Source of the DNA: Mycobacterium heckeshornense
GTDB lineage: Bacteria; Actinomycetota; Actinomycetes; Mycobacteriales; Mycobacteriaceae
Direction of reading: 5' to 3'
Assembly (NCBI RefSeq): GCF_016592155.1
Contig: NZ_AP024237.1
Coordinates: 4,030,001-4,094,000, forward strand
Length of the DNA stretch: 64,000 nucleotides
The notes under the pieces were generated by a model. The model saw nothing but the letters and a program-made list of their open reading frames with translations, was not told the DNA's origin and ran no database searches. Position numbers and translations under genes: made by a program. The stretch's first letter is position 1. Each line of letters begins with the position of its first letter. This document shows positions 17,837 through 39,004 of the stretch, piece after piece.

Positions 17837-17864
17837 AACACGACCGGCGATCGTGGTGAGTTCA
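17837..17864 (-). promoter_or_regulatory. SigL-type ECF promoter for SRPBCC1-O-methyltransferase operon
   Basis: Minus strand: -35 TGAACT (17859-17864, preceded by GCGG), exactly 16 bp, -10 CGTGTT (17837-17842), 31 bp before the start codon. It faces a matching plus-strand site 20 bp away. Same architecture as the sigL promoter at 38977-39004. Confidence 0.7.
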
Positions 17865-17884
17865 CCGCGGCCCCGCAGCGCTGT

Positions 17885-17912
17885 CGAACCGAGGACCCGC
17901 GCGGCTCGTGGT
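17885..17912 (+). promoter_or_regulatory. SigL-type ECF promoter for ABC transporter operon
   Basis: Plus strand: CGAACC (17885-17890), 16 bp, CGTGGT (17907-17912), 70 bp before the ATPase start. The -35 hexamer equals that of the sigL promoter; the -10 keeps CGTG. A GTG at 17908 that would open a longer ATPase frame lies inside this -10, so it cannot be the start if the promoter is real. Confidence 0.62.
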
Positions 17913-17982
17913 ATCCGATACCGGCGCCTTGCGGCGCGGGGTTCGCGTGAGGCTGACGGTCGATCGCGCAGGAGGCGTGGCC

Positions 17983-18825
17983 ATGGTGGACGCAATGGCG
18001 CGGCGTCACCGCAGGAGAGCCGTGCGACGGTTCGGTCACGCGGATCCGCCAACCCGCCAGCTGAGCATCCAACTGCGCAATGTGGTGCGCGAATACCGGG
18101 TCGGCGGTCAATCGGTGCGGGCACTCGACGACATCAGCCTGCGACTGTGCGGCGGGCAGTTCGTGTCGGTGGTCGGACCGTCGGGGGCGGGCAAGAGCAC
18201 CCTGCTGCACCTGCTCGGCGCGTTGGACTGCCCCGATTGGGGGTCGATCACCTTCGACGGCGAGGAGATCGGTCGTCTCAGCGACGAGCAGCGGTCGCTG
18301 TTTCGGCATCACCGCGTGGGGTTCATCTTCCAGTTCTTCAACCTGCTGCCGTCGTTGTCGGCGTGGGAGAACGTGGCGGTCCCGAAACTGCTCGACGGTG
18401 TGCGGCTGGGCAAGGCCAAAGCCGATGCGGTTCGGCTGCTGGACCGGGTCGGGCTCGGCAACCGCGTCGAGCACCGGCCGGCGGAGCTGTCCGGCGGCCA
18501 GATGCAGCGGGTGGCGATAGCGCGGGCGTTGATGATGGACCCGCCGCTGATCCTGGCCGACGAACCGACCGGCAATCTCGATTCGGCAACGGGTGCCGCG
18601 ATATTGGAGCTTCTGGCCGACGTGGCGCATGAGGACGGCCGCGGCCAGCTGGTGGTGATGGTGACCCACAACGTAGACGCCGCCGCGGCGACTGATCGGG
18701 TGATCACCCTGCGGGACGGTCGGCTCGGTTCCGACGAGTTCACCGTTGTGTGGGGTCGCCTCGGGCTAGGCCGATTCTGGGCCACCAACGGTCGACGTCG
18801 CCGCGATCGGGCGGCGCGGCCGTGA
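17983..18825 (+). CDS. ABC transporter ATPase, MacB/LolD type
   Basis: Nucleotide-binding subunit paired with the FtsX-family permease that follows, 280 aa. ATG 17983 has AGGAGG 7 bp upstream. Walker A GPSGAGKST near 75, Q-loop FQFFNLLPSLS, signature LSGGQMQR, Walker B ILADEPTGNLDS and switch His in VTHN are all intact. The ~25-residue basic N-terminal extension and basic C-terminus are unusual for LolD-type subunits. Such two-gene systems export lipids, lipoproteins or small molecules; export of the linked pathway's product is an inference from the shared ECF-type promoter. Confidence 0.88.
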   Translation: MVDAMARRHRRRAVRRFGHADPPTRQLSIQLRNVVREYRVGGQSVRALDDISLRLCGGQFVSVVGPSGAGKSTLLHLLGALDCPDWGSITFDGEEIGRLSDEQRSLFRHHRVGFIFQFFNLLPSLSAWENVAVPKLLDGVRLGKAKADAVRLLDRVGLGNRVEHRPAELSGGQMQRVAIARALMMDPPLILADEPTGNLDSATGAAILELLADVAHEDGRGQLVVMVTHNVDAAAATDRVITLRDGRLGSDEFTVVWGRLGLGRFWATNGRRRRDRAARP

Positions 18826-21353
18826 GCCGCCGATCGGGTGATCCCGTGGTCAAACGCCGCGCCGGGGTGATCGCCGCAGGGAGCCGACTGCGGCTGTTCA
18901 GCGTTCGCGAACTCGTCGTACACCGTCGGCGCACGATCGCATCGATGACCGTGATGGCAATAGCCGCAACGTATCTGGTCGCGGTGTTCGGCATCTTCGG
19001 GTCGATCACCGGGTCGGTTAACCGGTTGGCCGACGCGATTGCCGGGATCGCCGCACTCGAGATATCGGGTATCACCGACGCGGGATTCCCGGACACCGTC
19101 GCGGCCGATGTCGCCGCAGTTCGCGGCGTTGCCGCCGCGGCACCGATGATCCGCACGTCTGCGTCCACACCATCGGGACCGGTGTTGTTGTTCGGCGCGG
19201 ACGAGAAGAGTGCCGCGTTGCGCGGCGCCCTGAAAGATGTGGTCGGGGCACCGCCGGCAGCGCCGCCGGGCGTGAGTAACGGTGTCCAGGTCGGGCCGGG
19301 AGTCGGCTATGCGAAAGGCGAGCGCTTTCGGCTGGGCTCAGCGGAGGTCACCGTCGCGGCCGTGCTGGAGGGAAAGCAACTGGCAGAGCTCAACGGCGGA
19401 CACTACATCCTGGCTCCGCTTCCCTTGGCGCAGCAGATTACCGGTCGGCCACGCCAACTCGACTCGATACTGGTCACCATGAAACCGGGCGTGGATCGCG
19501 CCGCGGTCCGCGCCGCGATCACCAACGCGGTGAACGGCCGGGCAATCGTCGCAGATCCGAGCATGCGGGCAACCCGCGCTGGCGACGGTGTCAAGCTGAT
19601 GAACTACATGTCGCTGATCGGCGCGGCGGTCGCGTTGGTGGTGGGTGCGTTTTTGATCTACACCACGATGACGATGGCGATTGCCCAACGCCGGCCGGTC
19701 ATCTCGATACTGCGTGCGATCGGCGGGCGACGCGAAACCATCGTTGGTGACATGCTGCTGGAGGCCGCGGTTCTCGGGCTGATCGGCGGCGCTGTCGGAT
19801 CGGGTATGGGGATTGTCATGGGCCGCACCGCAATTGCTCGATTGCCACCGGCAATGACTCAAGGGCTCGAAGCGCGTGTGCAGTACTGGCTGCCCGGCCA
19901 CGCGATACCAGCCGCCCTCGCGGCGACCGTGCTCACCAGCGTGGCTGCCTCGGCGATGGCCGCGCGCCAGGTATACCGGGTGTCCCCGATCGAGGCACTG
20001 GCGCCGGTCGGGGTTTCAGCTGCCGACCGCGTGCCACGGTGGCTGCGGATCGCAAGCGGGTGTGGCGCCGTCGCGGTGCTGGCCGCCTCGATCCTGCTCG
20101 CGCTCGGCCGGCACTGCACATTCCCGTTCGTCGCAGCGCTCGCTTTGCTTGGTTCCGAGATCGCGCTCGGCTTCGCTCTCACCGGGCCGATCGTCAAGGC
20201 CACCGCCGCGGCCGCTCGACGGTTCGGATCGGTCGGGGCACTGGCGGCGGCCACGATCGAGCGTGCGCCGCGGCGGGTATGGGCCACGGTGATGACCGTA
20301 CTCATCGCGGTCGTTACCACCGTGGTGATTACCGGCACCAACACCGACATGATCCGCTCAGCCCGGGCCATCTTCGCGCCGGTCGCAGGTGTCGATGTGT
20401 GGGTCAGCGCGGATCCTCCTGACCGCTATCCCACAGACGTTCTGCCGCAAGGTGTTACGGGGAAGCTGGCCGCAGTTCCGGGCGTAGCACGGGTCGTCGA
20501 GGGCGCATGCGGGTTCGCTGAGGTCGGTGGCACGCGCGTGCTGCTTGACGGGTTTGCCCGCGGAAGCCACGATGCGCTCTATCGCGCGCTGGATGAACAG
20601 GTACGCAACGAGGTGCTGGCCGGCCGCGGCGTGGTGCTCACCCAAAATCTGGGCAAGACCCTGGGTGTCGGGGTCGGCGACGGTTTGCGGCTACCCACGC
20701 CCCACGGCCCGCGGCGGGCAACGGTGCTGGCCGTGGTTCCGTACTTCTCGACCGTTATCGGCACCGTCGGGATGGACCTCGACCACATGCGGGCCTGGTT
20801 CGACCGACCGGCGCCGACGACACTGCAGATCTTCGCCGCACCCGGGGTAGATCATGCGCGACTGTTGGCGGACGTGGGCCGCATCGTGCCGGCGCCCAAC
20901 TATGTGTACGACGGCCATGTTGCGCTGTCCGGCCTCGAGGCGCCGCTGCACCAGAGCATGTTCATCGCCAACGCGGTCTTGGTGATCGTGGTGTTCGTCG
21001 CCGCCGTCGCGGTCCTCAACACGTTGACGCTTTCGGTGCTGGACCGGCGCCGAGAACTCGGCGTGCTGCGGGCGATGGGATCTAGCCGCCGGTTCACGCT
21101 GCGAATGGTGCTGGCCGAGGCCGCCGGCATCGGTGTCGTCGGTGGCGTCTCGGGATTGGTTTTCGGCCTGGTTGACCAGTGGCTCTACAGCCTGGTCAGC
21201 GGGGACATCATGAACTTCGCGGTAGGTTTCCGGCCGAGCCCGGCGGCGGTCGCCTTTACCGCGGGCGCGCTGGTGCTCAGCCTGCTCGGGTCGGTGCCGC
21301 CCGCGTTGCGCGCCGCCCGGCTGAACATCATCGCGGCGATCAGCGCCGAATAA
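18822..21353 (+). CDS. FtsX-family ABC transporter permease, fused double-domain
   Basis: Large membrane permease, 843 aa from GTG 18822, which overlaps the ATPase stop (GTGA). A membrane anchor near residues 40-65, a large extracytoplasmic domain (~65-255), three helices of the first FtsX domain (~260-400) including RRPVISILRAIGG, a middle helical pair, a second extracytoplasmic domain (~500-700) and a second FtsX core (~705-840) with RRRELGVLRAMGSS. Architecture resembles M. tuberculosis Rv0987 as I recall it. Convergent with the DUF4389 gene, 7 bp between stops. Confidence 0.87.
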   Translation: MSRRSGDPVVKRRAGVIAAGSRLRLFSVRELVVHRRRTIASMTVMAIAATYLVAVFGIFGSITGSVNRLADAIAGIAALEISGITDAGFPDTVAADVAAVRGVAAAAPMIRTSASTPSGPVLLFGADEKSAALRGALKDVVGAPPAAPPGVSNGVQVGPGVGYAKGERFRLGSAEVTVAAVLEGKQLAELNGGHYILAPLPLAQQITGRPRQLDSILVTMKPGVDRAAVRAAITNAVNGRAIVADPSMRATRAGDGVKLMNYMSLIGAAVALVVGAFLIYTTMTMAIAQRRPVISILRAIGGRRETIVGDMLLEAAVLGLIGGAVGSGMGIVMGRTAIARLPPAMTQGLEARVQYWLPGHAIPAALAATVLTSVAASAMAARQVYRVSPIEALAPVGVSAADRVPRWLRIASGCGAVAVLAASILLALGRHCTFPFVAALALLGSEIALGFALTGPIVKATAAAARRFGSVGALAAATIERAPRRVWATVMTVLIAVVTTVVITGTNTDMIRSARAIFAPVAGVDVWVSADPPDRYPTDVLPQGVTGKLAAVPGVARVVEGACGFAEVGGTRVLLDGFARGSHDALYRALDEQVRNEVLAGRGVVLTQNLGKTLGVGVGDGLRLPTPHGPRRATVLAVVPYFSTVIGTVGMDLDHMRAWFDRPAPTTLQIFAAPGVDHARLLADVGRIVPAPNYVYDGHVALSGLEAPLHQSMFIANAVLVIVVFVAAVAVLNTLTLSVLDRRRELGVLRAMGSSRRFTLRMVLAEAAGIGVVGGVSGLVFGLVDQWLYSLVSGDIMNFAVGFRPSPAAVAFTAGALVLSLLGSVPPALRAARLNIIAAISAE

Positions 21354-21360
21354 CGCCGTC

Positions 21361-21966
21361 TCATCTGCTGCCCAGATCCATTCGGAACGGCGGATATTCG
21401 TCACGCATCAACGAGACATACACGGCCACGCGATATCTCCAGCGAACCATGCCCATCAGAAAATCGAACATGCCCTGCGAGACCGTGCCGGTGGACAACA
21501 ACCACACCGGGGCGATAACGCAAACCAGCTGCAGCAGCGGCTCCATCGCCCAGCAGACGAGTATCTGGGGGAGCCCCAACAGCCACCACTTCACCAGCAC
21601 ACCCCACCTCTTGAGCCGTTGCGGGTAGTCGACCTCGAGATCGCCCGGGTAGTCGGGCCGAGACGCGAGGGTGAAAGGCGGATACTTGTCGGTGCTGTTC
21701 ATCGGGAATCGGTAGTTCATGACTCGCCACGACCAGCGCAGCACCCCGACGTTGAAGTCGAAGATAGGGCGCGGGTAGCGGCCGGTGAACAAGACGGCGA
21801 CGCCGGCGACAACCGTCAGCAGCAGATACACCAGGTAGAGCAGGATCAAGATGGGATAGTGCGGCACGGCCAGCACGCACCACTTGAAAAGCCAGAGCCA
21901 GCGTGACGGCGCGTCGATACCACCTCGTACCCGGACGGGCTCATCCGGGTGGCTCACCGGTTCCAT
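21361..21966 (-). CDS. DUF4389 membrane protein
   Basis: 201 aa, start ATG 21966 with AGGAGG 8 bp upstream; a GTG three codons earlier overlaps the ribosome binding site. Two related halves each hold one or two hydrophobic helices (WLFKWCVLAVPHYPILILLYLV; VLVKWWLLGLPQILVC) followed by aromatic-rich FNVGVLRWSWRVMNYRFPM and FLMGMVRWRYRVAVYVSLM. These tandem motifs are characteristic of DUF4389. Function unknown. Its start lies inside the 3' end of the FAD monooxygenase gene (26-bp overlap), so the two are translationally coupled and under the same ECF-type promoter. Confidence 0.8.
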   Translation of the reverse strand: MEPVSHPDEPVRVRGGIDAPSRWLWLFKWCVLAVPHYPILILLYLVYLLLTVVAGVAVLFTGRYPRPIFDFNVGVLRWSWRVMNYRFPMNSTDKYPPFTLASRPDYPGDLEVDYPQRLKRWGVLVKWWLLGLPQILVCWAMEPLLQLVCVIAPVWLLSTGTVSQGMFDFLMGMVRWRYRVAVYVSLMRDEYPPFRMDLGSR

Positions 21967-23212
21967 GCTCGACACCTCCTGACTGGTTCATCGCCGTCGA
22001 CACCAGGGGCACGACGGGATGGTGGTCGCGGGTGTAGAGGTCTCGGCTGATCCGCGCCGACATCTTGGCGTGACTGGTCCAGCGCAGAAATGTGGTCAGT
22101 GCCCACGTCATGAACCGGTCCGGAACCATCGCCATCGGTTTCAGCGCAGCTTCGCTGTGAGATACCTGCTGGGTGGTCAGCCACGAAACGGCCTTGACTT
22201 TGCGTCGCCGGGTGTTTTCATACCAGCGCAGCGCGCCCTGGACATCGACACGGGAATCCGACAGCGCCTCGCACAACACCATCGTGTCGAGCAGCGCCTG
22301 ATTGGTTCCTTGCGCAAGCGTTGGCGGCATCGTATGCGCGGCGTCGCCGAGCAACGTCACCGCGCCTTGGCCCGCATGGGGAACCGGATGCCGGAAATGC
22401 GGGAACGGCGACGGGGCCAAATCCTCGTCGGTCAATGTGGCAAGTACCTGATCGACACAATCGGCCCATCCGGTGAAGTTGGATCGGATCATGTCGAGTG
22501 GACGTTGCGGTCGGACAAAGTCCGCAGACCACGGCAGGTCGAACCACCACTGCACGGCCCAACCTCCAGCCGGCCACAGGCCAAGGTTTCCGTGTTCGCC
22601 GATCATCATCAGCGCGATGTGCTTGTCCGCGATGTTTGGGAGCGTGACCAGTCCCTGCCAGCTGCACCAGCCGGTGGGCCTGGCGCGTGGTGCGCCAACG
22701 AGTTCGCGCACCACGGAGTGCACCCCGTCCGCGCCGATCAGCACGTCGCCTTCGGCCGAGCTGCCGTCGGCGAACTCGATCCGCGCGCCGGTGCCGGTGT
22801 CGAGCACCGTGACGGCGCGGGCATCGCATCGGACGCGGTCAGCCGGAAAGCCGTCCAGCAGCCGTTCCAGCAGGACTCGCCGGGGCACCATCCGCACGGG
22901 CTCGCCCAGCCGGTCCGCGATCGCCGTCACGTCCAAACATGTGATCGCAAATCCCCGAAGTGTGTGGACCCGCACGGTGGAGATCAGCTGGCCGGTCCCC
23001 TCCATGTCGACACCCAGCTGCCGCAGCACCGTCGCGCCGTTCGGCCAGATGGTCACGGCGCCGCCGCCCGGGGTCAGATGAGGCCGCTGTTCGAACACAG
23101 TGACGTCATGACCGTCGCGCAACAAGCCCCGAGCCACCGACAGGCCGCCCACACCCGCGCCGACGACAAGGATCCGAAGCGGGCGAGTCGACGGGGCATG
23201 CGGTATCGGCAT
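21941..23212 (-). CDS. FAD-dependent aromatic-ring/polyketide monooxygenase
   Basis: Class A flavoprotein hydroxylase (PHBH/UbiH type), 423 aa. Rossmann motif VVGAGVGG at ~16-23, the DG motif GADGVHSVV near 160, and the second FAD motif LLGDAAHTMPPTLAQGTN near 290. No membrane segment. ATG 23212 has AGGAGG 5 bp upstream. An ECF-type promoter ends 17 bp before the start. It probably hydroxylates or epoxidises an aromatic or polyketide intermediate; which one cannot be read from the sequence. The promoter ties it to the clusters at 17-18 kb and 30-37 kb. Confidence 0.85.
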   Translation of the reverse strand: MPIPHAPSTRPLRILVVGAGVGGLSVARGLLRDGHDVTVFEQRPHLTPGGGAVTIWPNGATVLRQLGVDMEGTGQLISTVRVHTLRGFAITCLDVTAIADRLGEPVRMVPRRVLLERLLDGFPADRVRCDARAVTVLDTGTGARIEFADGSSAEGDVLIGADGVHSVVRELVGAPRARPTGWCSWQGLVTLPNIADKHIALMMIGEHGNLGLWPAGGWAVQWWFDLPWSADFVRPQRPLDMIRSNFTGWADCVDQVLATLTDEDLAPSPFPHFRHPVPHAGQGAVTLLGDAAHTMPPTLAQGTNQALLDTMVLCEALSDSRVDVQGALRWYENTRRRKVKAVSWLTTQQVSHSEAALKPMAMVPDRFMTWALTTFLRWTSHAKMSARISRDLYTRDHHPVVPLVSTAMNQSGGVEHGTGEPPG

Positions 23213-23229: not shown

Positions 23230-23257
23230 AACACGCTGGAGGCCGGCGAGAAGTTCA
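23230..23257 (-). promoter_or_regulatory. SigL-type ECF promoter for FAD monooxygenase-DUF4389 operon
   Basis: Minus strand: TGAACT (23252-23257), 16 bp, CGTGTT (23230-23235). Both hexamers equal those of the SRPBCC1 promoter. Predicted transcript start about 10 nt before the ATG, leaving just the ribosome binding site in the leader. Confidence 0.68.
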
Positions 23258-23433
23258 CCACCGGTGAACCGTGTCGGCCCGAGACCGCCACCGCCAGAAG
23301 GTCGCCCGCCACGCTGATCGCCGTGACGGCTCAGCCACTCTCGGAGAAGCCGAAAAGCCCGGAGGTAGGCGACATGCCTGCCGGGGCCGGTGCCGCCGGG
23401 CCAGCGACCCCGGGTTGTCAGCCATCCCCTCCA

Positions 23434-25010: not shown

Positions 25011-25017
25011 CTGCGCG

Positions 25018-26184: not shown

Positions 26185-26210
26185 CGCCACCGCACAGGAA
26201 GGCCACGGCG

Positions 26211-27095: not shown

Positions 27096-27098
27096 GCT

Positions 27099-27686: not shown

Positions 27687-27726
27687 GGTCACACTCTCAG
27701 CGTGGCCGGGCGTCGCCCGGTGGGCG

Positions 27727-27742
27727 TCCCCCATTAGGGGGA
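27727..27742. promoter_or_regulatory. Palindrome upstream of response regulator gene
   Basis: TCCCCC, ATTA, GGGGGA: perfect 6-bp arms with a 4-bp centre, 53 bp before the regulator start. A plausible dimer site, possibly for autoregulation by the NarL-type regulator. No second copy was noticed nearby. Confidence 0.4.
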
Positions 27743-29708: not shown

Positions 29709-29772
29709 CGCGAGCAGACGCAGAATCGCCCTATTCATCAGCGTTTAGGGCGATTCTGCGTCTGCTCGCGCT
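29707..29772. terminator. 27-bp perfect hairpin, bidirectional terminator
   Basis: Left arm 29707-29733, right arm 29746-29772, exact reverse complements, 12-nt loop (29734-29745). The arms contain GCGAGCAGACGCAGAATCGC and its complement. It fills the whole gap between the kinase stop (29706-29708) and the MarR stop (29772-29774), so the arms touch both stop codons. The arm resembles an intergenic sequence (GCGAGCAGACGCAAAATCGC) I remember as recurrent in mycobacterial genomes. No T-run. Confidence 0.75.
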
Positions 29773-30290
29773 CAGAAGTCGCCAGCGTTGTGCCGCAACG
29801 TTTCGATCGACGACACCAATGCCTGCGCTTCGGCGTCCGCCATCCCGATGTCGGCGAACACCTGCTCGTTGAGTGTGACGGTGGCGTCTTCGACCGTCGA
29901 GCGGCCGAGAGCGGTGATCTGCACCAGCGTGGTGCGACCGTCGGTCGGATGCGGTATGCGCTGCACCAGCCCATCGGCTTCCAGCCGGCGGATCGCGTGA
30001 GTGACGCTGGTGACGTGCACCTGAAGCCGGTCGGAGGCCTTGGTGATCGGCAGCGCCCCGGTCCGGCTGAACGCCAGCAGGCGCAGCAGCTCGAAGCGGG
30101 AGAAGCTTAGATCGTAGGGGCGCAAGGCGTTTTCGACCCGGGCAAGCAGAATCTGGTGGGCGCGCATCACCGACGTCACGGCGACCATGCCCAGCGCGAC
30201 GTCACCCCATCCGGCGCGCTCCCAGTTGGCCCTGGCCTGGGCGATCGGGTCGCGGCGGTCGGATCGCTTGTCCGGTTGGTTGGCGGCCAC
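29772..30290 (-). CDS. MarR-family transcriptional regulator (Rv0737-like)
   Basis: 172 aa from GTG 30290 with AAAGGG close upstream; a TTG nine codons earlier is an alternative. Winged-helix MarR core: YDLSFSRFELLRLLAFSR, recognition helix ASDRLQVHVTSVTHAIRRLEADGLV, wing HPTDGRTTLVQIT. In M. tuberculosis the homologue Rv0737 directly follows sigL-rslA; here it is separated from rslA by the 7-kb biosynthetic cluster, so it could be the cluster's regulator or just the old neighbour. Confidence 0.85.
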   Translation of the reverse strand: MAANQPDKRSDRRDPIAQARANWERAGWGDVALGMVAVTSVMRAHQILLARVENALRPYDLSFSRFELLRLLAFSRTGALPITKASDRLQVHVTSVTHAIRRLEADGLVQRIPHPTDGRTTLVQITALGRSTVEDATVTLNEQVFADIGMADAEAQALVSSIETLRHNAGDF

Positions 30291-30391
30291 GCCCTTTCTT
30301 ACCGCACTCCGGGCCAACGCGCCCGGGCGGATCCCGTTCGCCGCTGCGCGCAGGAACGCCGTGCCAGGTGGTGGCGCCGACGGGAAACGAC

Positions 30392-30429: not shown

Positions 30430-31473
30430 TCACCCCAGCGCCTTGTCCACCACCGAGAGGACCGCGAGGCTGGATGCGCGGCTGCCGACGGTGATCCGCG
30501 CGCCGCCGTCCGAATAGTGCCGGACCTGCAGACCACTGCCCGCCAGCACGTCGCTCCACGGCCGATCCCTCGACGGCAGGTAGACGAAATTGGCGTGCGC
30601 GTCGGTGCTGCGGACTCCCATTGCGCGCAGTTGCTTCTGCAGATAGCGCCGCTCGGCGGTGATCAGCCGGACCCGCTTGAGCAGTTGGGTTTCGGCGGCA
30701 TAGGAGGCCGCGACCGCGAGCAATGCGGTGCTGGCCATGCCGAAGGGCAACTGCTTGGTCCACAGCGCCCTGGTCAGTTCCGGCGAACCGATTCCGTAAC
30801 CGATCCGCAGCCCGGCCAGCCCGTAGGCCTTGGAAAAGGTCCGCACCACAACCACATTGGGAAAGCGGGCGACCAATGAAGCCGCGTTGATCCGCTGCTC
30901 CGCCCCGGCGAATTCGATATACGCTTCGTCGAGCAACACCACGGTGTCCGCCGCCACCCTCCGCAGAAACCGCATCACCTCGACGGCAGGCTCCATTGTG
31001 CCAGTTGGATTGTGTGGGCGGCACAGCACCACCACCCGCGCCGCGGCTGCGGCGTCGGCCAGCGCATCGAGATTGTGATGACCGCGTTCGTCGAGCGGAA
31101 CCGTCACCGGGATCAGCCGCGCGATCTGTGCGATGATCGGGTACCCGTCGAACGTGGGTGATGCCATCACGATGGTGTCACCCAAATAGGTCAGGGCCTG
31201 CAACACTTGCATCACCACACCGGTTGCACCGGCACCAAGTACCACCTGATCCTCGGGCACCCCGATGTGATCGGCTATCAGGCGGCGCAGCCGCTCGGGC
31301 AGGAACTCCGGGTACCGATTGACTGCGTCGATCGACTTGACCAACGCTTTTCGCACCGCCCGCAGCGGCGGGAACGGATTCTCATTCAACGACAACGCCA
31401 GCGGATCGACCGCCTGCGGCAATGCGCCGAGGATCTCGGCGGTGATCGAGTTCCTCTGCGCGGCAATCGTCAT
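30430..31473 (-). CDS. PLP-dependent HisC/aromatic-type aminotransferase
   Basis: Fold-type I aminotransferase, 347 aa from ATG 31473, whose A is the last base of the preceding TAA. PLP site: LDEAYIEFAG (Asp182) and Schiff-base Lys215 in RTFSKAYGLAGLRIGYG; the NPTG motif is at 155-158. Closest in look to histidinol-phosphate/phenylalanine aminotransferases (HisC, Rv3772). There are no histidine-biosynthesis neighbours, and its place as last gene of the ThDP-SRPBCC-KAS operon suggests it aminates a keto intermediate or supplies an aromatic 2-oxo acid. Confidence 0.85.
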   Translation of the reverse strand: MTIAAQRNSITAEILGALPQAVDPLALSLNENPFPPLRAVRKALVKSIDAVNRYPEFLPERLRRLIADHIGVPEDQVVLGAGATGVVMQVLQALTYLGDTIVMASPTFDGYPIIAQIARLIPVTVPLDERGHHNLDALADAAAAARVVVLCRPHNPTGTMEPAVEVMRFLRRVAADTVVLLDEAYIEFAGAEQRINAASLVARFPNVVVVRTFSKAYGLAGLRIGYGIGSPELTRALWTKQLPFGMASTALLAVAASYAAETQLLKRVRLITAERRYLQKQLRAMGVRSTDAHANFVYLPSRDRPWSDVLAGSGLQVRHYSDGGARITVGSRASSLAVLSVVDKALG

Positions 31474-32486
31474 TAGCCGCGTCCACCCCACCGCATTGCG
31501 GCCGCTCCGGCGAAGTCACCGGCGTGGGCGAAGGCGGCCATCAGCACCACGTCGCCGGCGTTGATCTGACCGTCCGAGATAGCGCGATCGAGGTTGATCG
31601 GGATACCGGCACCGAACAGGTTGCCGCACTCGTCGAAGGTATCGCGGTGACGCTCGGGCGGTATTTCGAGCGCTTCTCGCCAATTGCGCAGGAATACCCG
31701 GTTGGGCTGGTTGGTGACGAGCAGGTCAACATCCCTGGACGCCAAGCCGATTCGATCGCAAACCGCGAGCGCCACTTCAGGAACCTGGCGGTTGCCGCGG
31801 GCCAGCACTTTGGTGATCTTGGTTTCGGTGAACCCGATGCAGCCTTCTCCGCGTCCCGGCTGCCACCACTTGCGCGGAGGATCGATCGCGAGCGTCATGT
31901 CTCCGGCGTATTCGCCGTAGGTGCGGCACTCGACATCAAGGATCGGCGATTGATCCGACAGCGTGACCAATCCGACTGCGGCACCGTCGCCGGGGACCGC
32001 AGCCTGCGCCATGCGCCGAACACCCGGCTGATCGAAGACTTGCCCCGCCGCGTTTTGCGCAATTGCGATCAGCGCGGTGCGCCCCTCGCCGGACGACAGT
32101 AGTTTACGAGCGACGTTGAGCCCGAGCACAAATGCCGCGCATCCGCCGTTGTGAAGATCCAGCACCCACGACGGCCGCATGCCTAAGCGGTGCGCGATGC
32201 CACCGCCCGCACCATAGAAAGGCATATCCGGCATCTGGGTGTGCGTGATCAACACGTCAATATGCTCTATGACATCGCGGCCATGCCGCTCGATCAGTCC
32301 TTGCGCGGCATGCTCGACCATGTCGATCGCGCTCTCGTCGGGTCCGACGTGATGGCGAAACCTCGGCGCGCGGAACATCAGGTTGTCACGCAACTCATCT
32401 GATCCGGCGAATTGCGCGTAGTAATCGGCGCTGATCGGCTCGCCCGGCAGGTAAGTGGAAACGTCGGTGAGGCTGACTTCAGTCAT
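31473..32486 (-). CDS. KAS III-like (FabH-family) condensing enzyme with altered active site
   Basis: Thiolase-fold protein, 337 aa from ATG 32486, AGGAGG 9 bp upstream. The nucleophile is kept (Cys116 in LHNGGCAAFVLGL) and so is the Asn of GNLFGAGIP (Asn289), but the His of the usual HQ(A/P)N motif is replaced by Asn in VTNQPNRVF (Asn259). That His assists decarboxylation in FabH, so this enzyme may be an acyltransferase or condense without malonyl decarboxylation, as some natural-product KAS III homologues do. Third gene of the minus-strand operon. Confidence 0.8.
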   Translation of the reverse strand: MTEVSLTDVSTYLPGEPISADYYAQFAGSDELRDNLMFRAPRFRHHVGPDESAIDMVEHAAQGLIERHGRDVIEHIDVLITHTQMPDMPFYGAGGGIAHRLGMRPSWVLDLHNGGCAAFVLGLNVARKLLSSGEGRTALIAIAQNAAGQVFDQPGVRRMAQAAVPGDGAAVGLVTLSDQSPILDVECRTYGEYAGDMTLAIDPPRKWWQPGRGEGCIGFTETKITKVLARGNRQVPEVALAVCDRIGLASRDVDLLVTNQPNRVFLRNWREALEIPPERHRDTFDECGNLFGAGIPINLDRAISDGQINAGDVVLMAAFAHAGDFAGAAAMRWGGRG

Positions 32487-32489
32487 GGC

Positions 32490-32559
32490 GGCGCTCCTCC
32501 TCATCGCTTCGCTCTGCATCGTCGCCGCCGCACATCATGGCGGCGCTCCTCCTCATCGC
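32490..32559. repeat. Two copies of an 18-bp ribosome-binding-site element
   Basis: GGCGCTCCTCCTCATCGC occurs at 32490-32507 and again at 32542-32559 (minus strand GCGATGAGGAGGAGCGCC). The first copy supplies the ribosome binding site of the KAS III-like gene; the second covers the stop of SRPBCC copy 2. A one-base variant is at 12058-12075 in front of infA. The 66-bp gap thus looks like a duplicated leader. Confidence 0.6.
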
Positions 32560-33218
32560 ATCCACGCCGGCGTGATCGGCAGGCCGTTGCGGTGGCGGTA
32601 TTCCGCGATCGTCTTGAGGTTGTTCAGCTCCAACGCATGACCGGGACCGAAAATGTCCCAGAAGTCTCCCACCCAGCCGGAACGCTGTGGCGGCGCCGCC
32701 TCCGGGTAGGGGTTGTCGTTGTAGAACGGATGGCGGCAATTAGTCCACAGCACAACGGAACCCGGCTTGTTGAGCACCACCTGCGCGTCGAGCACCCGCA
32801 TCAGATAGATCATCCACAGGTGTTTGCCCTGGTCCCACGCACAGTGATAGTCGACGGTGCGGGCCTCGGCGTTGGCATGCGTGCGGGTATAGATCTTGGT
32901 CTCCGGGAGCAACCGGTCGTAGGCCACCCACAGCCCTGGCTCGTCGGTCGGAGTGAAACCACGCAGCGTATAGGTCCACTCCTCGAGACTGCGGGTGTCG
33001 GCCATGTACTCGAACAGCTCGTCCGGTGGGCAGTCGACGTAGTCATTGACCGTGCAGTACTGACCGAACATTTCGTCGTGCGAGTACACCGAGCGCATTC
33101 TCGCCAGGAAGATCGGAGCAGTCTGCTCGAGTGGCGAGGTCTCGATGCGGACCACTCCGTCGATCGGCTCGCTTGTGCCGGTGTGGGCGTGGATATCGTC
33201 AAGCGCTGGCAGCGACAT
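32553..33218 (-). CDS. SRPBCC/START-like ligand-binding protein, copy 2
   Basis: 221 aa, gap-free paralogue of the protein at 17140-17805, with the same DCPPDELFEYMADTRSLEEW motif, the same conserved VDYHCAWDQGKHLWMIY segment and the same C-terminus. ATG 33218 lies 20 bp inside the 3' end of the ThDP-enzyme gene, with AAGGAGA ten bases upstream, so it is translationally coupled. Duplicates placed in both ECF-type loci argue that each acts on related intermediates of one pathway. The biochemical role is not known. Confidence 0.72.
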   Translation of the reverse strand: MSLPALDDIHAHTGTSEPIDGVVRIETSPLEQTAPIFLARMRSVYSHDEMFGQYCTVNDYVDCPPDELFEYMADTRSLEEWTYTLRGFTPTDEPGLWVAYDRLLPETKIYTRTHANAEARTVDYHCAWDQGKHLWMIYLMRVLDAQVVLNKPGSVVLWTNCRHPFYNDNPYPEAAPPQRSGWVGDFWDIFGPGHALELNNLKTIAEYRHRNGLPITPAWMR

Positions 33219-34944
33219 CTGCGCGGTTCTCCTTTGTGGTCGAGCTTTCGTGACTTACAGCGTGTTTGGCTGAGGAAGCGCTGAGAAATGGTGCAAACGG
33301 CGGGATTTCATCGGCTGCGCATTCCACGCTCACCACTGACGGGCCGTCGACATCTAGCGTCGCGCGCAACGCGGCAGCCAACCCGTCGGTGTCGCTGACG
33401 TCGACCGACGGCAGCCCCGGAAACATCGCTGCCAGCCCAGCACCCAGCCGGCTGGGCGCAAAGCGGTTATAGCTGTACCTATCGCCGTAGTAGAGCTGCT
33501 CGCGGGTCACGCACATGGCATGGGCGTTGTTGTTGAGCAGCACGAACGTGATCGGCAACCGGTAGTGCACAGCGGTGTGCACCTCCATGCCGTGCATGAA
33601 GAACGCACCGTCGCCCGCGATCACTACCACCCGTCGGGCCGGAGACTGCTCGCCGGTGCGGGCGAACGCCATTCCGATACCGGCGCCGAAGCTGTAGCCC
33701 ATGCCGCCCATGCCGAGGGCGACCAGGAACCGGCCCCCGCGTCGCACCGGCAAGTGATGGATGGCCGCCGCGCCGGTATTGCCCGCGTCGACCACGACGT
33801 CGACGCCGTCGGGCAACACGGCGTCCACCGCGCTCATCGCGTCGCGGTAGCGCACACCGGGACCGTCGAATGGCGGAGGCGTCAACTCCGTGCGCACCAC
33901 CGCGTCGGGCACCCGCACACCCGTTGGCCGCCCCCGACCGGATAGCGCGGTTGTCAACATACGCAGCGACGCCCGCAGGTCGTCGGTGTGCACGTGGGTG
34001 CAGGGAACGTACGGCGGCGCCGACCCGATCGACACCACGCGAACTGCAGCAAGCGCGTCGTCGAGTCCGGTGCGTGCGGTCACCGACAGCCGGGTGCCCA
34101 CCACCAAGCACAACGCACTCTTGGCCAGCGCCTCGGCAACGCCGGGATGGCCCATCACGCCGGTCACTCCCAGCGCCGACGACGACCCGAATCCCGGTGT
34201 GCCGGCGACATCTTTCGCGTCGGGCACACACGCCACCCGCGCGCGCAGCACGGCGCGCAGCCACTCCACCTCAGCGCGAGCGTCATCGCGAGCCACTTGC
34301 TCGCCGGCGATGATCGTGACCGGCCCGCTCACCTGGCGCAGGGCGCTGACGATCGGGTGGGGATCACCGACGGTGCGCGACGGCTCAAAACACTGCTCAC
34401 CGTAACCGTTTGCGCCAACGTCTGATTGTTGAATGTTTTTGGGCAACAACAAGACAGCGGGTCCGCCCCGTTGTGCCGCGGCGACCGCGGCGGGCAGAGC
34501 CGCGATGATGTCGGCGGGCTTGACCACCCGGCGGCAAAAAACCGACACCGCAGAAAACAACGCCTCGGCGTCGAGCGATCCGTTGCGGCCACTGGTGTCC
34601 TGAAAACTGCCCCGTCCGTCCATCGTCGTCGACGGTTGGCCCACCAATGCCAGGACCGGTACCCGACTGGTCAGCGATTCCCCCAACCCGGGCACAAGGT
34701 TCAGCGCTCCCCCGCCCGACGTGGCGGCCACCACACCCAATTTCTGCCCGCAGCGGCTGTACCCGTCGGCCATGGTGGCAGCGGAAAACTCGTGCTTGGC
34801 GAGTACCGCAGTGATATCTGACCGGAAATATGCGGCGTCGTAGAGATCTTCGATGTTGGCCCCGTCGACACCAAAGATGTGGCCAACCCCGATTGCCGCG
34901 AGGTGCTCGACGATGTGGTCAACCACTCGTTGCTTCGCTGGCAT
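33199..34944 (-). CDS. Thiamin diphosphate-dependent enzyme, acetolactate synthase-like
   Basis: 581 aa from ATG 34944. Catalytic Glu52 in AKHEFSAATMADGYSR of the N-terminal pyrimidine domain; a central NAD/FAD-like domain; and the ThDP/Mg motif GDGAFFMHGMEVHTA ending in LLNNN (about 444-473). It lacks a small-subunit gene and does not neighbour ilv genes, so it is more likely a decarboxylase or carboligase making an acyloin or 2-hydroxyketone. The -10 of an ECF-type promoter ends 6 bp before the ATG, implying a leaderless mRNA and fixing the start; the frame opens earlier, at 35088, but that would cross both divergent promoters. First gene of the operon ThDP-SRPBCC-KAS-aminotransferase. Confidence 0.85.
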   Translation of the reverse strand: MPAKQRVVDHIVEHLAAIGVGHIFGVDGANIEDLYDAAYFRSDITAVLAKHEFSAATMADGYSRCGQKLGVVAATSGGGALNLVPGLGESLTSRVPVLALVGQPSTTMDGRGSFQDTSGRNGSLDAEALFSAVSVFCRRVVKPADIIAALPAAVAAAQRGGPAVLLLPKNIQQSDVGANGYGEQCFEPSRTVGDPHPIVSALRQVSGPVTIIAGEQVARDDARAEVEWLRAVLRARVACVPDAKDVAGTPGFGSSSALGVTGVMGHPGVAEALAKSALCLVVGTRLSVTARTGLDDALAAVRVVSIGSAPPYVPCTHVHTDDLRASLRMLTTALSGRGRPTGVRVPDAVVRTELTPPPFDGPGVRYRDAMSAVDAVLPDGVDVVVDAGNTGAAAIHHLPVRRGGRFLVALGMGGMGYSFGAGIGMAFARTGEQSPARRVVVIAGDGAFFMHGMEVHTAVHYRLPITFVLLNNNAHAMCVTREQLYYGDRYSYNRFAPSRLGAGLAAMFPGLPSVDVSDTDGLAAALRATLDVDGPSVVSVECAADEIPPFAPFLSASSAKHAVSHESSTTKENRADVAASA

Positions 34945-34950
34945 ACCGGT

Positions 34951-34978
34951 TACACGACTCGCGGGCGCTTCCAGTTCA
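34951..34978 (-). promoter_or_regulatory. SigL-type ECF promoter for ThDP enzyme operon
   Basis: Minus strand: TGAACT (34973-34978, preceded by GCGG), 16 bp, CGTGTA (34951-34956). The expected start site falls on the A of ATG 34944, so the transcript is predicted leaderless. Confidence 0.7.
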
Positions 34979-35006: not shown

Positions 35007-35034
35007 TGAACCCCGCGCGTCTTCGCGCCGTGTT
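35007..35034 (+). promoter_or_regulatory. SigL-type ECF promoter for FMO-BBE operon
   Basis: Plus strand: TGAACC (35007-35012, preceded by GCGG), 16 bp, CGTGTT (35029-35034), 39 bp before ATG 35074. The best match of the six to the SigL consensus as I remember it (TGAACC, 16-17 bp, CGTG). It is back to back with the ThDP operon promoter. Confidence 0.75.
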
Positions 35035-35073
35035 AGTTGCCAAAGCCGTGGGTAAGGAGTCGTGCCGCCATTG

Positions 35074-36264
35074 ATGAGTAACCACCACGGCCTCGCCGGG
35101 TCTTCAACGACCACCGTTGTTGTCATCGGGGCAGGGCCGTCTGGTCTGGCCGTGGCGCGTCAGCTCGAGCACCGGCACCGGATCAAGACGCTTGTCCTCG
35201 AAAGAGCTTTGGCTCCCGCGATCGCCTGGCGCACGCGCTACGACGACTTTCGCCTCAATACCAGCGGTTTCTTATCCCACCTTCCCGGACAACGGATTCC
35301 GGTGACCGCGGGCCGCTGGCCGACCAAAGAGGACATGGTCCGCTATTTCGACCGCTACGTGCGCGTGCAGAACATCGCGCTTCGGCTCGGCTGCGAGGTC
35401 AACCATATCGACCGCAGTGCACAGGGCTGGCGACTCGACACATCGTCGGGGGAAATCCTTGCCCCGGTGATCGTCCTGGCTACCGGCAACTACCGCACCC
35501 CCACCATCCCCCGATGGCCGGGCCTTGGTCAGTTCAACGGCGAACTCATCCACTCCGGCGAGTTCACCAACGCGTGGCCCTTTGCGGGCCGCGACGTCCT
35601 GGTGGTCGGCGCGGGCAACTCGGCTGCCGACATCGCGGTCCAGCTCGCCTACGACGGTGCGCGCAGAATCTGGCTTGCCGTGCGCACTCCACCGCACCTG
35701 GTGCGGCGCGCATTGGGTCCGGTCCCGGCGGATGTCTTACTCGAGCTGTTCGCGCGGGTGCCTGCGGACAAGGTCGACCCGCTGATCGAGCGCGTCAACC
35801 ACCTTATATGGGGCGATCTGTCGAAGTGTGGGTTCCGGCGGCCACCGCTCGGGCTAAAGGCCACGGTGGAACAGCGAGGCCGGATCCCCACCCTGGCCGA
35901 CGAACTCATCGACGTCGTGCGGACCGGCCGGGTGCATGTGGTCGCCGCCGTGCAGGCGCTTGAGTCCGAACGCGTGATCCTCGCCGACGGCAGTTCGGTA
36001 ACGCCGCAGGTGATCATCGCCGCCACCGGCTTTCGGCCGGATCTCGAGGGCTTGGTCGGCCACCTCGGCGTTCTCGACGAACACGGCAACCCGCGCGGCG
36101 GCTTCGCCTCGCACCTCGGTGCCGGAATGTTCGCGATCGGATACGGGATTCCGCCCAACGGCCCACTGCGCGCCATCCGGCGCGCCGCCACACCGCTGGC
36201 CCAGCAGATCGCAGACTACCTGTCAGCAACACGTCATCAAGCCAAAACCGATGTTAAACAATGA
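35074..36264 (+). CDS. Flavin-containing monooxygenase (YUCCA-like FMO)
   Basis: Class B FAD/NADPH monooxygenase, 396 aa. FAD motif VVIGAGPSGLAVARQL (GAGPSG at 19-24), FMO-type IHSGEFTNAW near 155, NADPH motif VVGAGNSAADIA near 175, and ATGFRPD near 315. ATG 35074 follows AAGGAG by 14 nt; GTG 35062 and TTG 35071 are alternatives. Such enzymes N-oxygenate amines, S-oxygenate, or decarboxylate 2-oxo acids oxidatively; with an aminotransferase in the cluster, N-oxygenation or keto-acid oxidation is attractive but unproven. Stop overlaps the next ATG (ATGA). Confidence 0.85.
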   Translation: MSNHHGLAGSSTTTVVVIGAGPSGLAVARQLEHRHRIKTLVLERALAPAIAWRTRYDDFRLNTSGFLSHLPGQRIPVTAGRWPTKEDMVRYFDRYVRVQNIALRLGCEVNHIDRSAQGWRLDTSSGEILAPVIVLATGNYRTPTIPRWPGLGQFNGELIHSGEFTNAWPFAGRDVLVVGAGNSAADIAVQLAYDGARRIWLAVRTPPHLVRRALGPVPADVLLELFARVPADKVDPLIERVNHLIWGDLSKCGFRRPPLGLKATVEQRGRIPTLADELIDVVRTGRVHVVAAVQALESERVILADGSSVTPQVIIAATGFRPDLEGLVGHLGVLDEHGNPRGGFASHLGAGMFAIGYGIPPNGPLRAIRRAATPLAQQIADYLSATRHQAKTDVKQ

Positions 36265-37601
36265 CCTTTCACGTTGCCGGTAAGACCTTCTTCCGCGGTG
36301 CCGCAGGCTACGAAACGGCTCGTCGGGAAACAGTATGGAATGGGATTGTCCCCCAACGCTTTCCTGACGTCATCGTACAAGCGCATAACACCGACCATGT
36401 CGTCGCGGCGATCTGCTACGCGCGCGCCCACGGCCACCACATCGGTGTGTGCTCGGGCGGGCACAATTGGTCGGCCAGCCACCTTCGCGACGGCGGGTTG
36501 CTGCTCGATGTCAGTCGCCTGGACCACTGCAGCGTCGACACCGACCGGATGACCGCGGACGTCGGCCCGGGCAAGGTGGCGAGCGTGTTCGCGGCCGAAC
36601 TGGACTCCCAAGGGTTGTTCTTTCCCGCAGGCCATTGCGAGGGCATTTGCCTGGGCGGCTATCTGCTGCAGGGCGGATACGGCTGGAACAGCCCGATGCT
36701 CGGCCCGGCGTGCGAGAGCGTGCTGGGTCTGGAGGTGATCACCGCCGATGGCGAACGGCTCTACTGCGATGCCGAAAACCATGCTGACCTGTATTGGGCC
36801 GCCCGCGGGGCGGGACCGGGGTTTTTCGGCGTGGTCACCTCGTTCAAACTGCGGGTTCACCCGCGGCCACCGGTGTGGGGAACCTGCCTCTACGTGTACC
36901 CGATCGAGCTCGCCGACGAGGTATTCACCTGGGGACGCGCAATCAGTTCCGAGCTCGACGAGCGGGTCGAACTTCAGATCCAGACCGCACGCAGCTTCCC
37001 CGGAGCCGGCCTCGACCAGCCCGGCATCGCGATCGCTTCACCGGTTTTCGCCGACTCAGAGGACGAGGCGGCCAAAGCCCTTGCCCCGCTGGGGACTTGC
37101 CCCGTTGCTGACAAGGCGATCGTCAGCCTGCCCTATGCGCCGACTAACCTGGCCAACTGGTACAGGGCCGTGATGACCAATTATCCGACGGGGCACCGCT
37201 ATATCGCCGACAATATGTTCACGTCGGCTTCCGCCGAAGAGCTCCTGCCGGGCATCCGGAAAATCATCGAAACGATGCCGCCGCACCCGTCGCATTTCAT
37301 CTTCACGGGCTGGAAAACGTCTCCGGCCCGAGCTGGCATGGTCTACGGCTTGGAGGATGAAATCTACCTGGCCCTCTACACCATCTGGCAGGATCCGGCC
37401 GACGACGACCGCTACAGCAACTGGGCAGCATCGAATATGGCGGCGATGTCGCATCTGGCGACGGGGATCTCGCTCGCCGACGAGAATCTGTGTCGGCGCC
37501 CGGCTCGATTCATCACCGAGCCGAACATGGCTCGCCTGGACGAAGTGCGCTCAGCTTATGACCCAGAGGGTCGATTTCACAGCTGGATGGCGCGCTGCTG
37601 A
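36261..37601 (+). CDS. BBE-family FAD-linked oxidase, probably bicovalent flavin
   Basis: 446 aa, PCMH-type FAD domain and berberine-bridge-enzyme C-terminus (YDPEGRFHSWM). His68 in CSGGHNWS and Cys126 in AGHCEGICLGGYLLQGGYGW fit the two flavin attachment points of bicovalent BBE oxidases. No signal peptide, so it is cytoplasmic. Such enzymes perform two-electron oxidations such as ring closure, dehydrogenation or alcohol oxidation in natural-product pathways. ATG 36261 overlaps the FMO stop. Convergent with rslA, 7 bp apart. Confidence 0.87.
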   Translation: MTFHVAGKTFFRGAAGYETARRETVWNGIVPQRFPDVIVQAHNTDHVVAAICYARAHGHHIGVCSGGHNWSASHLRDGGLLLDVSRLDHCSVDTDRMTADVGPGKVASVFAAELDSQGLFFPAGHCEGICLGGYLLQGGYGWNSPMLGPACESVLGLEVITADGERLYCDAENHADLYWAARGAGPGFFGVVTSFKLRVHPRPPVWGTCLYVYPIELADEVFTWGRAISSELDERVELQIQTARSFPGAGLDQPGIAIASPVFADSEDEAAKALAPLGTCPVADKAIVSLPYAPTNLANWYRAVMTNYPTGHRYIADNMFTSASAEELLPGIRKIIETMPPHPSHFIFTGWKTSPARAGMVYGLEDEIYLALYTIWQDPADDDRYSNWAASNMAAMSHLATGISLADENLCRRPARFITEPNMARLDEVRSAYDPEGRFHSWMARC

Positions 37602-37608
37602 TCGGCCA

Positions 37609-38361
37609 CTAAAGCGAACGCTGCAGTAGTACGTGTCCGTTGTCGGCCAAAACCACTTGCACAGCTGAGATTTGATCCATCGGCGTCGCAATGCTGCCCA
37701 CCGGTGTTGCGGTGTGACCGGGTTCTGCCACCCAGGTTGCCAGCTGGCTGCGGCTGCCGTCGCGGCGCACCACGACCATCGCCAGCGTGTCATGGTGGGC
37801 GTTAATGGGCGCCAGGCAAACGCATTTCATCGAGATGTAGGTTCCCCACTGCTCGGCGGACAGCGAGACCGTCGAGGCCAAATTTTTGGTACCGACTTGC
37901 GCCATCGGCAGCGACGAGACGCTGGCTTGCGGCGGCGTGGTCGCTGGCGTTGAGGAATGGCCTTGGATGCCGACGAACACACCGATCGCCAGCACCACGG
38001 CGGCAGCGGCTCCGGCCGCCCAGGTCAGTACGCGGGAGCGGCGCCGTCGCCAGCCGACCCTGGCCAGCAGTGACGGCAGCAGTTCGGCAGGCACCGGCGG
38101 CGCACCGCCGGTACGGTCGGCCTCGTCGATGGCCGCCAGCTCGTCACGGTCCAGCTGCGAGAGCAATGCCGGCATGCCGCTGAGTTCGGCGACGGCGCTG
38201 CGGCACGCCGGGCAAACATCCATGTGCGCTTCGAATTCGCGCCGATCCGAGGCCGACAGGGAACCCAGCACATAGGCGGCGTCCCACGTCGCATACTCGT
38301 GGTCGTCGCGCCCGAACTGCGCACCGTCACCAGGGGGGTTAGCGCCCCATAAAGTCTTCAT
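37609..38361 (-). CDS. rslA: Anti-sigma-L factor RslA (zinc-associated, membrane-anchored)
   Basis: 250 aa, matching Rv0736 in length. The cytoplasmic N-terminal zinc-associated anti-sigma domain has the H-x3-C-x2-C motif His46-Cys50-Cys53 (EAHMDVCPACRS). One membrane helix at about 140-160 (WAAGAAAAVVLAIGVFVG) precedes an extracytoplasmic domain with a CVCL motif. The zinc site suggests release of SigL on oxidation. 70 bp downstream of sigL in the same operon. Confidence 0.93.
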   Translation of the reverse strand: MKTLWGANPPGDGAQFGRDDHEYATWDAAYVLGSLSASDRREFEAHMDVCPACRSAVAELSGMPALLSQLDRDELAAIDEADRTGGAPPVPAELLPSLLARVGWRRRRSRVLTWAAGAAAAVVLAIGVFVGIQGHSSTPATTPPQASVSSLPMAQVGTKNLASTVSLSAEQWGTYISMKCVCLAPINAHHDTLAMVVVRRDGSRSQLATWVAEPGHTATPVGSIATPMDQISAVQVVLADNGHVLLQRSL

Positions 38362-38431
38362 CGTGTAACCCCCATCTTAGGCTTCATCGAGTATTCGGAG
38401 CCGACCTCCGCGCGGATTGCACGTCGCGCCG

Positions 38432-38959
38432 TCATCGGGTCACCCCCATCTCTTGCAACGTGAGCCGCAGGGCCCGCAGGGCGTAGTGCAGACGCGACTT
38501 CACGGTGCCTTCAGCGATTCCAAGATCGGCGGCGATTTGCGCGGTGCTCCATCCCCGGTAGTACGAGCGGCAAACCACGGCGCGGTGTTCGGCGGAAAGC
38601 TGTGCGAACGCGTCGGCGATCAGCAGCCGGTCCAGCGCGGCATTGACCTCGTCCGGGCCCGCCGGCTCGGGTGCTTTATCCAGCGAGTTGACCTCGGAGC
38701 GAGCCCGTGCGCTGCGGCTCTCGTCGATGATCAGGTTGCGGGCGACGGTGAACAACCAGGCCCGCGCCGAACGCTCGGTGTCGCCGACGACCTCAGGATG
38801 CTGCCAGGCTCGCAGCAGCGTCTCCTGCACGACGTCTTCGGCGCGCGCGCGGTCACCGGTCAGCCTCAGCGCATATCGCCATAAGGCCGCGGCGTGCTCG
38901 TCGTAAAGCGCCTTCATCAAGGCGGCTTCGGGAGCCGCCGGGCTGGCGACAGTAGGCAC
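38432..38959 (-). CDS. sigL: ECF RNA polymerase sigma factor SigL
   Basis: 175 aa. Sigma-2 domain (YDEHAAALWRYALRLTGDRA, AEDVVQETLLRAWQ) and sigma-4 HTH (YYRGWSTAQIAADLGIAEGTVKSRLHYALRALR). GTG 38959 is chosen because it has AGGAGG at good spacing and gives the same 15-residue distance to the conserved LMxALYDEH as M. tuberculosis SigL; GTG 38965 overlaps the ribosome binding site. Preceded by its own ECF-type promoter, indicating autoregulation. The five other matching promoters in the window define its likely local regulon. Confidence 0.93.
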   Translation of the reverse strand: MPTVASPAAPEAALMKALYDEHAAALWRYALRLTGDRARAEDVVQETLLRAWQHPEVVGDTERSARAWLFTVARNLIIDESRSARARSEVNSLDKAPEPAGPDEVNAALDRLLIADAFAQLSAEHRAVVCRSYYRGWSTAQIAADLGIAEGTVKSRLHYALRALRLTLQEMGVTR

Positions 38960-38976
38960 TTGCACCTCCTGGAGGT

Positions 38977-39004
38977 GACACGAGTGAAGCGCCCGTCCGG
39001 TTCG
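38977..39004 (-). promoter_or_regulatory. SigL autoregulatory promoter
   Basis: Minus strand: CGAACC (38999-39004), 16 bp, CGTGTC (38977-38982), 17 bp before the chosen sigL start. The transcript would begin near the AGGAGG. A short palindrome (CACCTCC-T-GGAGGTG, 38964-38978) overlaps the -10 and ribosome binding site. Confidence 0.7.

Follow-up and report, generated by a model that had tools for sequence, protein, structure and literature searches.

A 64,000-base stretch of Mycobacterium heckeshornense DNA (the window; contig NZ_AP024237.1, positions 4,030,001 to 4,094,000) carries the genes of the extracytoplasmic function (ECF) sigma factor SigL and its anti-sigma factor RslA beside a set of biosynthetic operons. 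The core operon encodes a thiamine diphosphate (ThDP) enzyme, an SRPBCC-family protein, a β-ketoacyl synthase III (KASIII)-like enzyme (KAS) and an aminotransferase, and around it lie genes for flavin enzymes, an O-methyltransferase and an ABC exporter (Table 1). Six sites of one promoter architecture stand before these operons and before sigL. From sequence comparison, we consider it probable that the six sites are SigL promoters driving sigL, rslA and a surrounding biosynthetic regulon of carbazole type. Published findings are cited by PMC number and are limited to the portions of those articles that were available.

Table 1. Genes and putative promoters of the cluster, in window coordinates
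Feature	Position	Strand	Assignment and remarks
O-methyltransferase, start uncertain	15966..17195	-	Methyltransf_2; PDB AlpH, E 2.3e-95
SRPBCC1, paralog of SRPBCC2	17140..17805	-	81% identical to SRPBCC2; five catalytic positions alike
Site 1, promoter of SRPBCC1-O-methyltransferase	17837..17864	-	SigL-type; leader of ~25 bases with GGAG before ATG 17805
Site 2, promoter of ABC exporter	17885..17912	+	weaker SigL-type; ~65 bases from start
ABC transporter ATPase, start uncertain	17977..18825	+	ABC_tran
FtsX-type ABC permease, start uncertain	18750..21353	+	FtsX
DUF4389 membrane protein	21361..21975	-	PF14333
FAD-dependent aromatic monooxygenase	21941..23212	-	FAD_binding_3; PDB 3rp8 flavoprotein monooxygenase, E 7e-42
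Site 3, promoter of FAD monooxygenase-DUF4389	23230..23257	-	SigL-type
MarR regulator, start uncertain	29772..30317	-	after core operon, in the place of Rv0737; MarR in 73/80 loci of relatives
HisC-like aromatic aminotransferase (CqsB7 role)	30430..31491	-	PDB 4r2n putative phenylalanine aminotransferase, E 3.1e-56
KASIII-like enzyme, Cys127-Asn270-Asn300 (CqsB1/NzsJ role)	31473..32519	-	
SRPBCC2, CqsB2-like carbazole synthase homolog	32553..33218	-	CqsB2, E 3.9e-49
ThDP-dependent acetolactate-synthase-like enzyme (CqsB3/NzsH role)	33199..34944	-	TPP_enzyme domains; best PDB BbmA, CsmA; ScyA-related model below cut-off
Site 4, promoter of core operon	34951..34978	-	SigL-type
Site 5, promoter of FMO-EncM-like oxidase	35007..35034	+	SigL-type
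FMO-type flavin monooxygenase	35062..36264	+	domain match
EncM-like FAD oxidase	36261..37601	+	FAD_binding_4; PDB EncM, E 9.1e-35
rslA, zinc anti-sigma factor	37609..38361	-	PDB 3hug_B, E 6e-32; zf-HC2
sigL, ECF sigma factor	38432..38965	-	PDB 6dv9_F SigL, E 5e-87
Site 6, promoter of sigL-rslA (autoregulation)	38977..39004	-	SigL-type

The sigma factor matched the SigL structure with 293 bits, against about 58 bits for the next full-length ECF protein, and scored above the cut-off of the subfamily model PRK09645; RslA carries the zinc motif HXXXCXXC. Both proteins are orthologs of the M. tuberculosis pair, which upholds the names given in the first-pass annotation, an earlier reading of the letters alone. 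In M. tuberculosis, RslA binds zinc and holds SigL, with 8-fold lower affinity upon oxidation (PMC2877774), and the SigL holoenzyme initiates transcription at the sigL promoter (PMC6372665). Rip1 is also part of the SigL-RslA pathway there and plays a role when iron is low (PMC10449499).

The first-pass annotation had described six YGAACY-N16-CGTG sites (Y, T or C), four of them with GG ahead of the -35 element and each pointing at an operon. A pattern scan of the window recovered all six at the coordinates and strands of Table 1. The GG is present at sites 1, 3, 4 and 5, and every site faces its operon in the correct direction, a short distance 5' of the start codon. The pattern occurs six times in the window, compared with a mean of 0.98 and a maximum of 4 in 100 dinucleotide shuffles. 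It had been read off the six sites themselves and was hence tested on the whole genome, a single contig of 4.957 Mb, where it gave 75 matches, compared with 40 for a reversed-pattern control. A looser form, TGAAC-N16..18-CGTGNNA, was not enriched genome-wide (19 matches compared with 16 reversed; 4 of the 19 are sites 1, 3, 4 and 5). The motif by itself is therefore unspecific, and most single matches are meaningless. The local density is a different matter: the 21.2-kb span holds 6 matches against 0.30 expected from the other 69 in the genome (P 7e-7, rising to about 5e-4 with a rough correction for the whole genome). The six sites of the first-pass annotation are confirmed.

A stricter form, YGAAC-N17-CGTGTNA, likewise picked after the sites had been viewed, matched the genome only 8 times (reversed control, 1), and five of these are sites 1, 3, 4, 5 and 6 (0.013 expected in the span, P 3e-12). 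The remaining three are antisense to long frames, one of them in a gene read as nuoM, and were rejected as SigL targets on that account; the match in L111, near a frame edge, is less clear. The nearest relative, G186, keeps all six sites. Between it and the window, 1 of 72 element bases differs as opposed to 12 of 102 spacer bases (Fisher p 0.016).

All six sites share YGAAC-N17-CGTG, and four have TGAAC. The experimental SigL -10 consensus has C or A at -9, A at -8 and G at -7 (PMC6372665). T-12, G-11 and A-8 occur at every site; A-8 lay outside the pattern of the first-pass annotation, and its function in the sigL promoter of M. tuberculosis is documented (PMC6372665). Weakest of the six is site 2, before the exporter, with CGAACC and CGTGGTA. 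Only about 7 bases separate the -10 element of site 4 from the ThDP start codon (34942-34978), and the ThDP mRNA from this site may be leaderless. The -35 box of site 3 is faced by another GGTGAAC, on the + strand (23250-23275, GTTCACCACCGGTGAAC); it resembles the back-to-back -35 boxes found between exporter and ThDP genes in relatives.

To assess conservation, 398 relatives of KAS were collected and the 80 best loci used. For each gene, the 300 bases 5' of it were scanned, in upstream windows ending at the first aligned codon; genes with identity below 50%, a first aligned residue beyond 45 or fewer than 300 bases upstream were excluded. GAAC-N17-CGT stood upstream of ThDP in 76/76 windows, of sigL in 66/66, of the FMO gene in 19/21, of the exporter ATPase in 13/16 and of the FAD monooxygenase in 13/30, where at least two ThDP and at least two FMO windows were counted twice through overlapping loci of the same contig (L019/L008 and L046/L012). 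It was rare before the other genes: KAS 0/80, aminotransferase 1/80, SRPBCC 4/77, MarR 0/73, rslA 9/63, O-methyltransferase 1/13, BBE 0/21, DUF4389 0/15, LCM 3/86, map 1/48, adk 0/45 and secY 0/39. The mmsA-fadE9-mmsB genes and the two-component pair at 23490-29708 were considered as members of the system and rejected on the same measure (mmsA 0/60, fadE9 0/65, mmsB 3/68, histidine kinase 0/18, response regulator 0/17). Other spacings from 12 to 22 gave small counts, the highest being for ThDP at 14 (16) and 12 (9). The fourth base of the CGTG block varies among relatives, as the full CGTG was present in 30/66 sigL windows compared with 66/66 for CGT. The CGTGNNA form was found before ThDP in 34/76, sigL in 18/66, FMO in 13/21, FAD monooxygenase in 11/30 and the exporter ATPase in 0/16. 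Spacer bases were variable among the ThDP sites of relatives, in a logo built from sites selected by their elements.

Relatives thus keep promoters of this architecture ahead of corresponding gene sets, and the local SigL/RslA regulon proposed in the first-pass annotation gains support from this. Could the six matches have arisen by chance in GC-rich DNA? The genome-wide counts of the original and the loose form beside their reversed controls, and the derivation of the pattern from the sites, would allow it. Against that stand the local density, the single conserved spacing with its low counts before other genes, and the G186 spacers that changed while the elements were kept, and we regard chance as exceedingly improbable.

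Several observations weigh against reading all of these sites as SigL promoters. The -9 position is C or A at only 2/6 sites and -7 is G at 2/6; the four known M. tuberculosis SigL promoters are themselves only a partial fit to the -10 consensus (PMC6372665). The 80 loci share kinship and a few windows are repeated, so that they are not independent events. The FAD monooxygenase lacks its own site in 17/30 windows; in the gene orders read, it then often lies after rslA in the same direction, and may share the rslA transcript. Three loci (L068, L073 and L189) have a site before ThDP in stretches that show no sigL. Nor is CGTGTNA general. Among 21 genomes the strict pattern was matched in 14, near a KAS gene only in G000, G004, G008 and G011, and G001 has the KAS gene with zero matches. 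The site is missing before ThDP in three mycobacterial cassettes apart from sigL (L153, L154 and L156, a comparison that leaves out the malformed L079 window) and in 7/8 loci of other genera. One genome in the 21-genome scan, G006, showed eight identical strict matches spaced about 3.2 or 6.3 kb apart (C1:183446-221469), an array that suggests a large repeated gene.

Alternatively, a different ECF sigma factor might be the main reader of the promoters, or SigL might be just one of several. Sites of SigL, SigE and SigH are said to be similar (PMC4821874), and second sigL-like matches occur in L001, L003, L007, L009 and L027. The tight linkage to sigL, the same promoter before sigL in every upstream window scanned, and the published finding that the sigL promoter of M. 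tuberculosis is transcribed in a SigL-dependent manner (PMC6372665) argue otherwise, and we consider this alternative quite unlikely. Regulation of these operons by SigL is well supported by the sequence comparisons, and we infer transcription from the six sites by SigL.

Bacterial carbazoles are built by four enzyme types, and the core operon contains all of them. On the way to carquinostatin and neocarazostatin, an aminotransferase yields indole-3-pyruvate, a ThDP enzyme joins it with pyruvate, the acyl chain is attached by a KASIII-like enzyme, and CqsB2/NzsI carries out the ring closure (PMC7466098); the aminotransferase of the chlocarbazomycin pathway is HisC-like (PMC10100901). The carquinostatin carbazole synthase CqsB2 was the sole PDB match of SRPBCC2 at E up to 1, and a polyketide reading of KAS and SRPBCC was rejected on this basis. 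CqsB2 residues Tyr144, Tyr172, His206 and Glu209 correspond to Y138, Y166, H194 and E197, which are kept in 145, 143, 145 and 145 of 145 copies. Glu105 is replaced by D101 here and by Asp in 142/142 covered copies. The KAS triad is kept as well (Cys127 143/144, Asn270 145/145, Asn300 147/147). Paralogs, and loci occurring more than once in a genome, are included in these counts, which exclude L134 as well as alignments below 30% identity (SRPBCC, RslA) or 28% (KAS). The 'dedicated metabolite system' of the first-pass annotation is supported accordingly and can be described as carbazole-type, from the CqsB2 match and the four enzyme types together.

The chemistry has its own counter-evidence. 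Asn takes the place of the catalytic His in KAS (Cys-Asn-Asn, not Cys-His-Asn), and a scan of 30 frames (13.2-44.0 kb) revealed no carrier protein, second KASIII or prenyltransferase. The distant actinomycete G642 has both a mycobacterial-kind locus (L185) and a second one (L184), whose SRPBCC is near CqsB2 (E 7e-103) and whose KAS has Cys-His-Asn; the KAS of the window is only 29% identical to this KAS. Because G642 holds both types and the triad differs, the cassette is, on sequence, a sister subfamily of the canonical carbazole cassette.

SigL might drive the operons while the product of the diverged cassette is another acyloin-derived indole or arylpyruvate product, such as a scytonemin-like tricycle or an open-chain acyl ketone. 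The altered triad, D101 in place of Glu105, the long branch that sets KAS far from canonical KAS in the tree, and weak matches to the ScyA-related and ScyC models point this way. The scytonemin enzymes ScyA and ScyC also perform a ThDP carboligation followed by cyclization. Their family matches reach 122 bits against a curated cut-off of 1000 and 20 against 400, however, and the CqsB2 match is far stronger, with its Tyr, Tyr, His and Glu kept and all four carbazole-route enzyme types present. We consider a non-carbazole product unlikely and a carbazole-type product likely, as judged from these homologies.

Under the carbazole-type reading, SigL would stay bound to RslA until oxidation of the RslA zinc site or cleavage of RslA, and freed SigL would initiate transcription at the six sites. 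The aminotransferase would convert tryptophan to indole-3-pyruvate, the ThDP enzyme would couple this to a second keto acid, the KASIII-like enzyme would attach an acyl chain, and ring closure by the SRPBCC protein would give an alkyl-carbazole or something closely related. Decoration of the product would fall to the FAD monooxygenase, the FMO, the EncM-like oxidase and the O-methyltransferase, with the second SRPBCC, and the FtsX-type transporter would export it or clear it from the membrane. The redox trigger is presumed by analogy with the M. tuberculosis pair, for which it is published. We likewise infer the chemistry and the role of the product. Bacterial carbazoles have been described as protecting cells from free-radical damage (PMC7466098), and we would guess that a radical-protective carbazole suits a redox-sensing switch.

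Among 198 Mycobacterium genomes, KAS was matched in 130 (E up to 1e-60) and SigL in 170 (E up to 1e-45); both were found in 125, KAS only in 5, SigL only in 45 and neither in 23. These counts describe co-occurrence, not adjacency, and are uncorrected for kinship (Fisher p 3e-8). The SRPBCC type was found in 25/345 genomes of the class, in 5/126 genera. In 66/80 loci sigL lies in the same stretch as the operon, always on the KAS strand; among the remaining 14 are short contigs and second copies. In L009 and L027 (also L001, L003 and L007), a second sigL-like/rslA-like pair stands in tandem with sigL-rslA.

Loss was followed in 12 of the 45 sigL-only genomes, fetched together with 6 whose KAS is 61-69% identical. 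Eight of the 12 run sigL-rslA-MarR without a core gene found between (L141-L144, L146, L148-L150), three hold core fragments (L139, L145, L147) and one differs (L140); YGAAC-N17-CGTG precedes sigL in 7/12. Decay is also seen in L134 (3,268,203-base genome), where KAS, aminotransferase and SRPBCC are broken, a sigL scrap lies beside map-adk-secY and no ThDP match was obtained. In L151 and L152, sigL-rslA-ThDP-SRPBCC-KAS-aminotransferase lies elsewhere in the chromosome than map-adk-secY, and both sigL and ThDP are preceded by a site. As the KAS of these two groups apart from the main clade (tree of 40 chosen rows, with long branches), the linkage of sigL to the cassette is either old and often lost, or has arisen twice. 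The absence of the system from M. tuberculosis, proposed in the first-pass annotation, would fit the published closeness of Rv0737 and sigL (PMC13002591), and such an absence is directly visible in other genomes that bear sigL. A search with the M. tuberculosis RslA domain gave matches in 5/396 genomes (best identity 76%), none of the 396 being recognisable as M. tuberculosis.

Compared with the SigL-RslA system of M. tuberculosis (Rv0735-Rv0736), the proteins are orthologous, the autoregulatory promoter has the same form, sigL lies beside map-adk-secY and a MarR gene of the Rv0737 kind is nearby; unlike there, rslA and MarR are separated by a biosynthetic operon that has a SigL-type promoter to itself. 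The M. tuberculosis genes pks10/pks7, which we take to encode type III and type I polyketide synthases, resemble this cassette as secondary metabolism genes under SigL but are different genes. Published targets include pks10/pks7, Rv1139c and sigL itself (PMC13002591, PMC6372665), and reported effects of SigL concern polyketide genes and, recently, low-iron growth (PMC13002591, PMC10449499). The CqsB1-B2-B3-B7/NzsJ-I-H cassette shares the four enzyme types and a CqsB2 homolog with 4/5 of the named residues, and lacks the Cys-Asn-Asn triad, the Asp for Glu105 and the linkage to an ECF sigma factor seen here. What appears to be new is a core enzyme set of carbazole type under a SigL-type promoter. 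An open-licence literature search gave no title or abstract start reporting a mycobacterial carbazole-type pathway or a SigL link to one.

SigL would here head a conserved pathway beyond its previously studied roles in M. tuberculosis. We tentatively suggest, as a possibility rather than an expectation, that the ancestral job of mycobacterial SigL-RslA was the redox-triggered production of a membrane-soluble alkyl-carbazole or carbazole-quinone (a radical scavenger, electron carrier or signal), that the pathway was lost in some lineages, the tubercle and leprosy bacilli among them, and that M. tuberculosis SigL outlived its main target. If true, this would assign an ancestral function to SigL, predict a compound class absent from the mycobacterial literature found, explain the redox-sensitive anti-sigma factor and provide an example of a regulator retained after pathway loss. 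The Cys-Asn-Asn KASIII subfamily is an enzymological question in its own right.

Two neighbouring features complete the locus. The MarR gene comes after the aminotransferase gene and shares its strand, and where the operon is absent it is often retained beside rslA; MarR may for this reason sense the pathway product. In M. tuberculosis, Rv0737 lies close to sigL and is reported to bind the sigL promoter region, the gene control there being an Ms_1488 promoter fragment (PMC13002591). The MarR homolog of M. smegmatis mc2 155 is Ms_1492 (PMC13002591), and going by gene numbers Ms_1488-1491 would correspond to the operon. The window also holds two CqsB2-like SRPBCC genes, where most relatives read have one, in the core operon.

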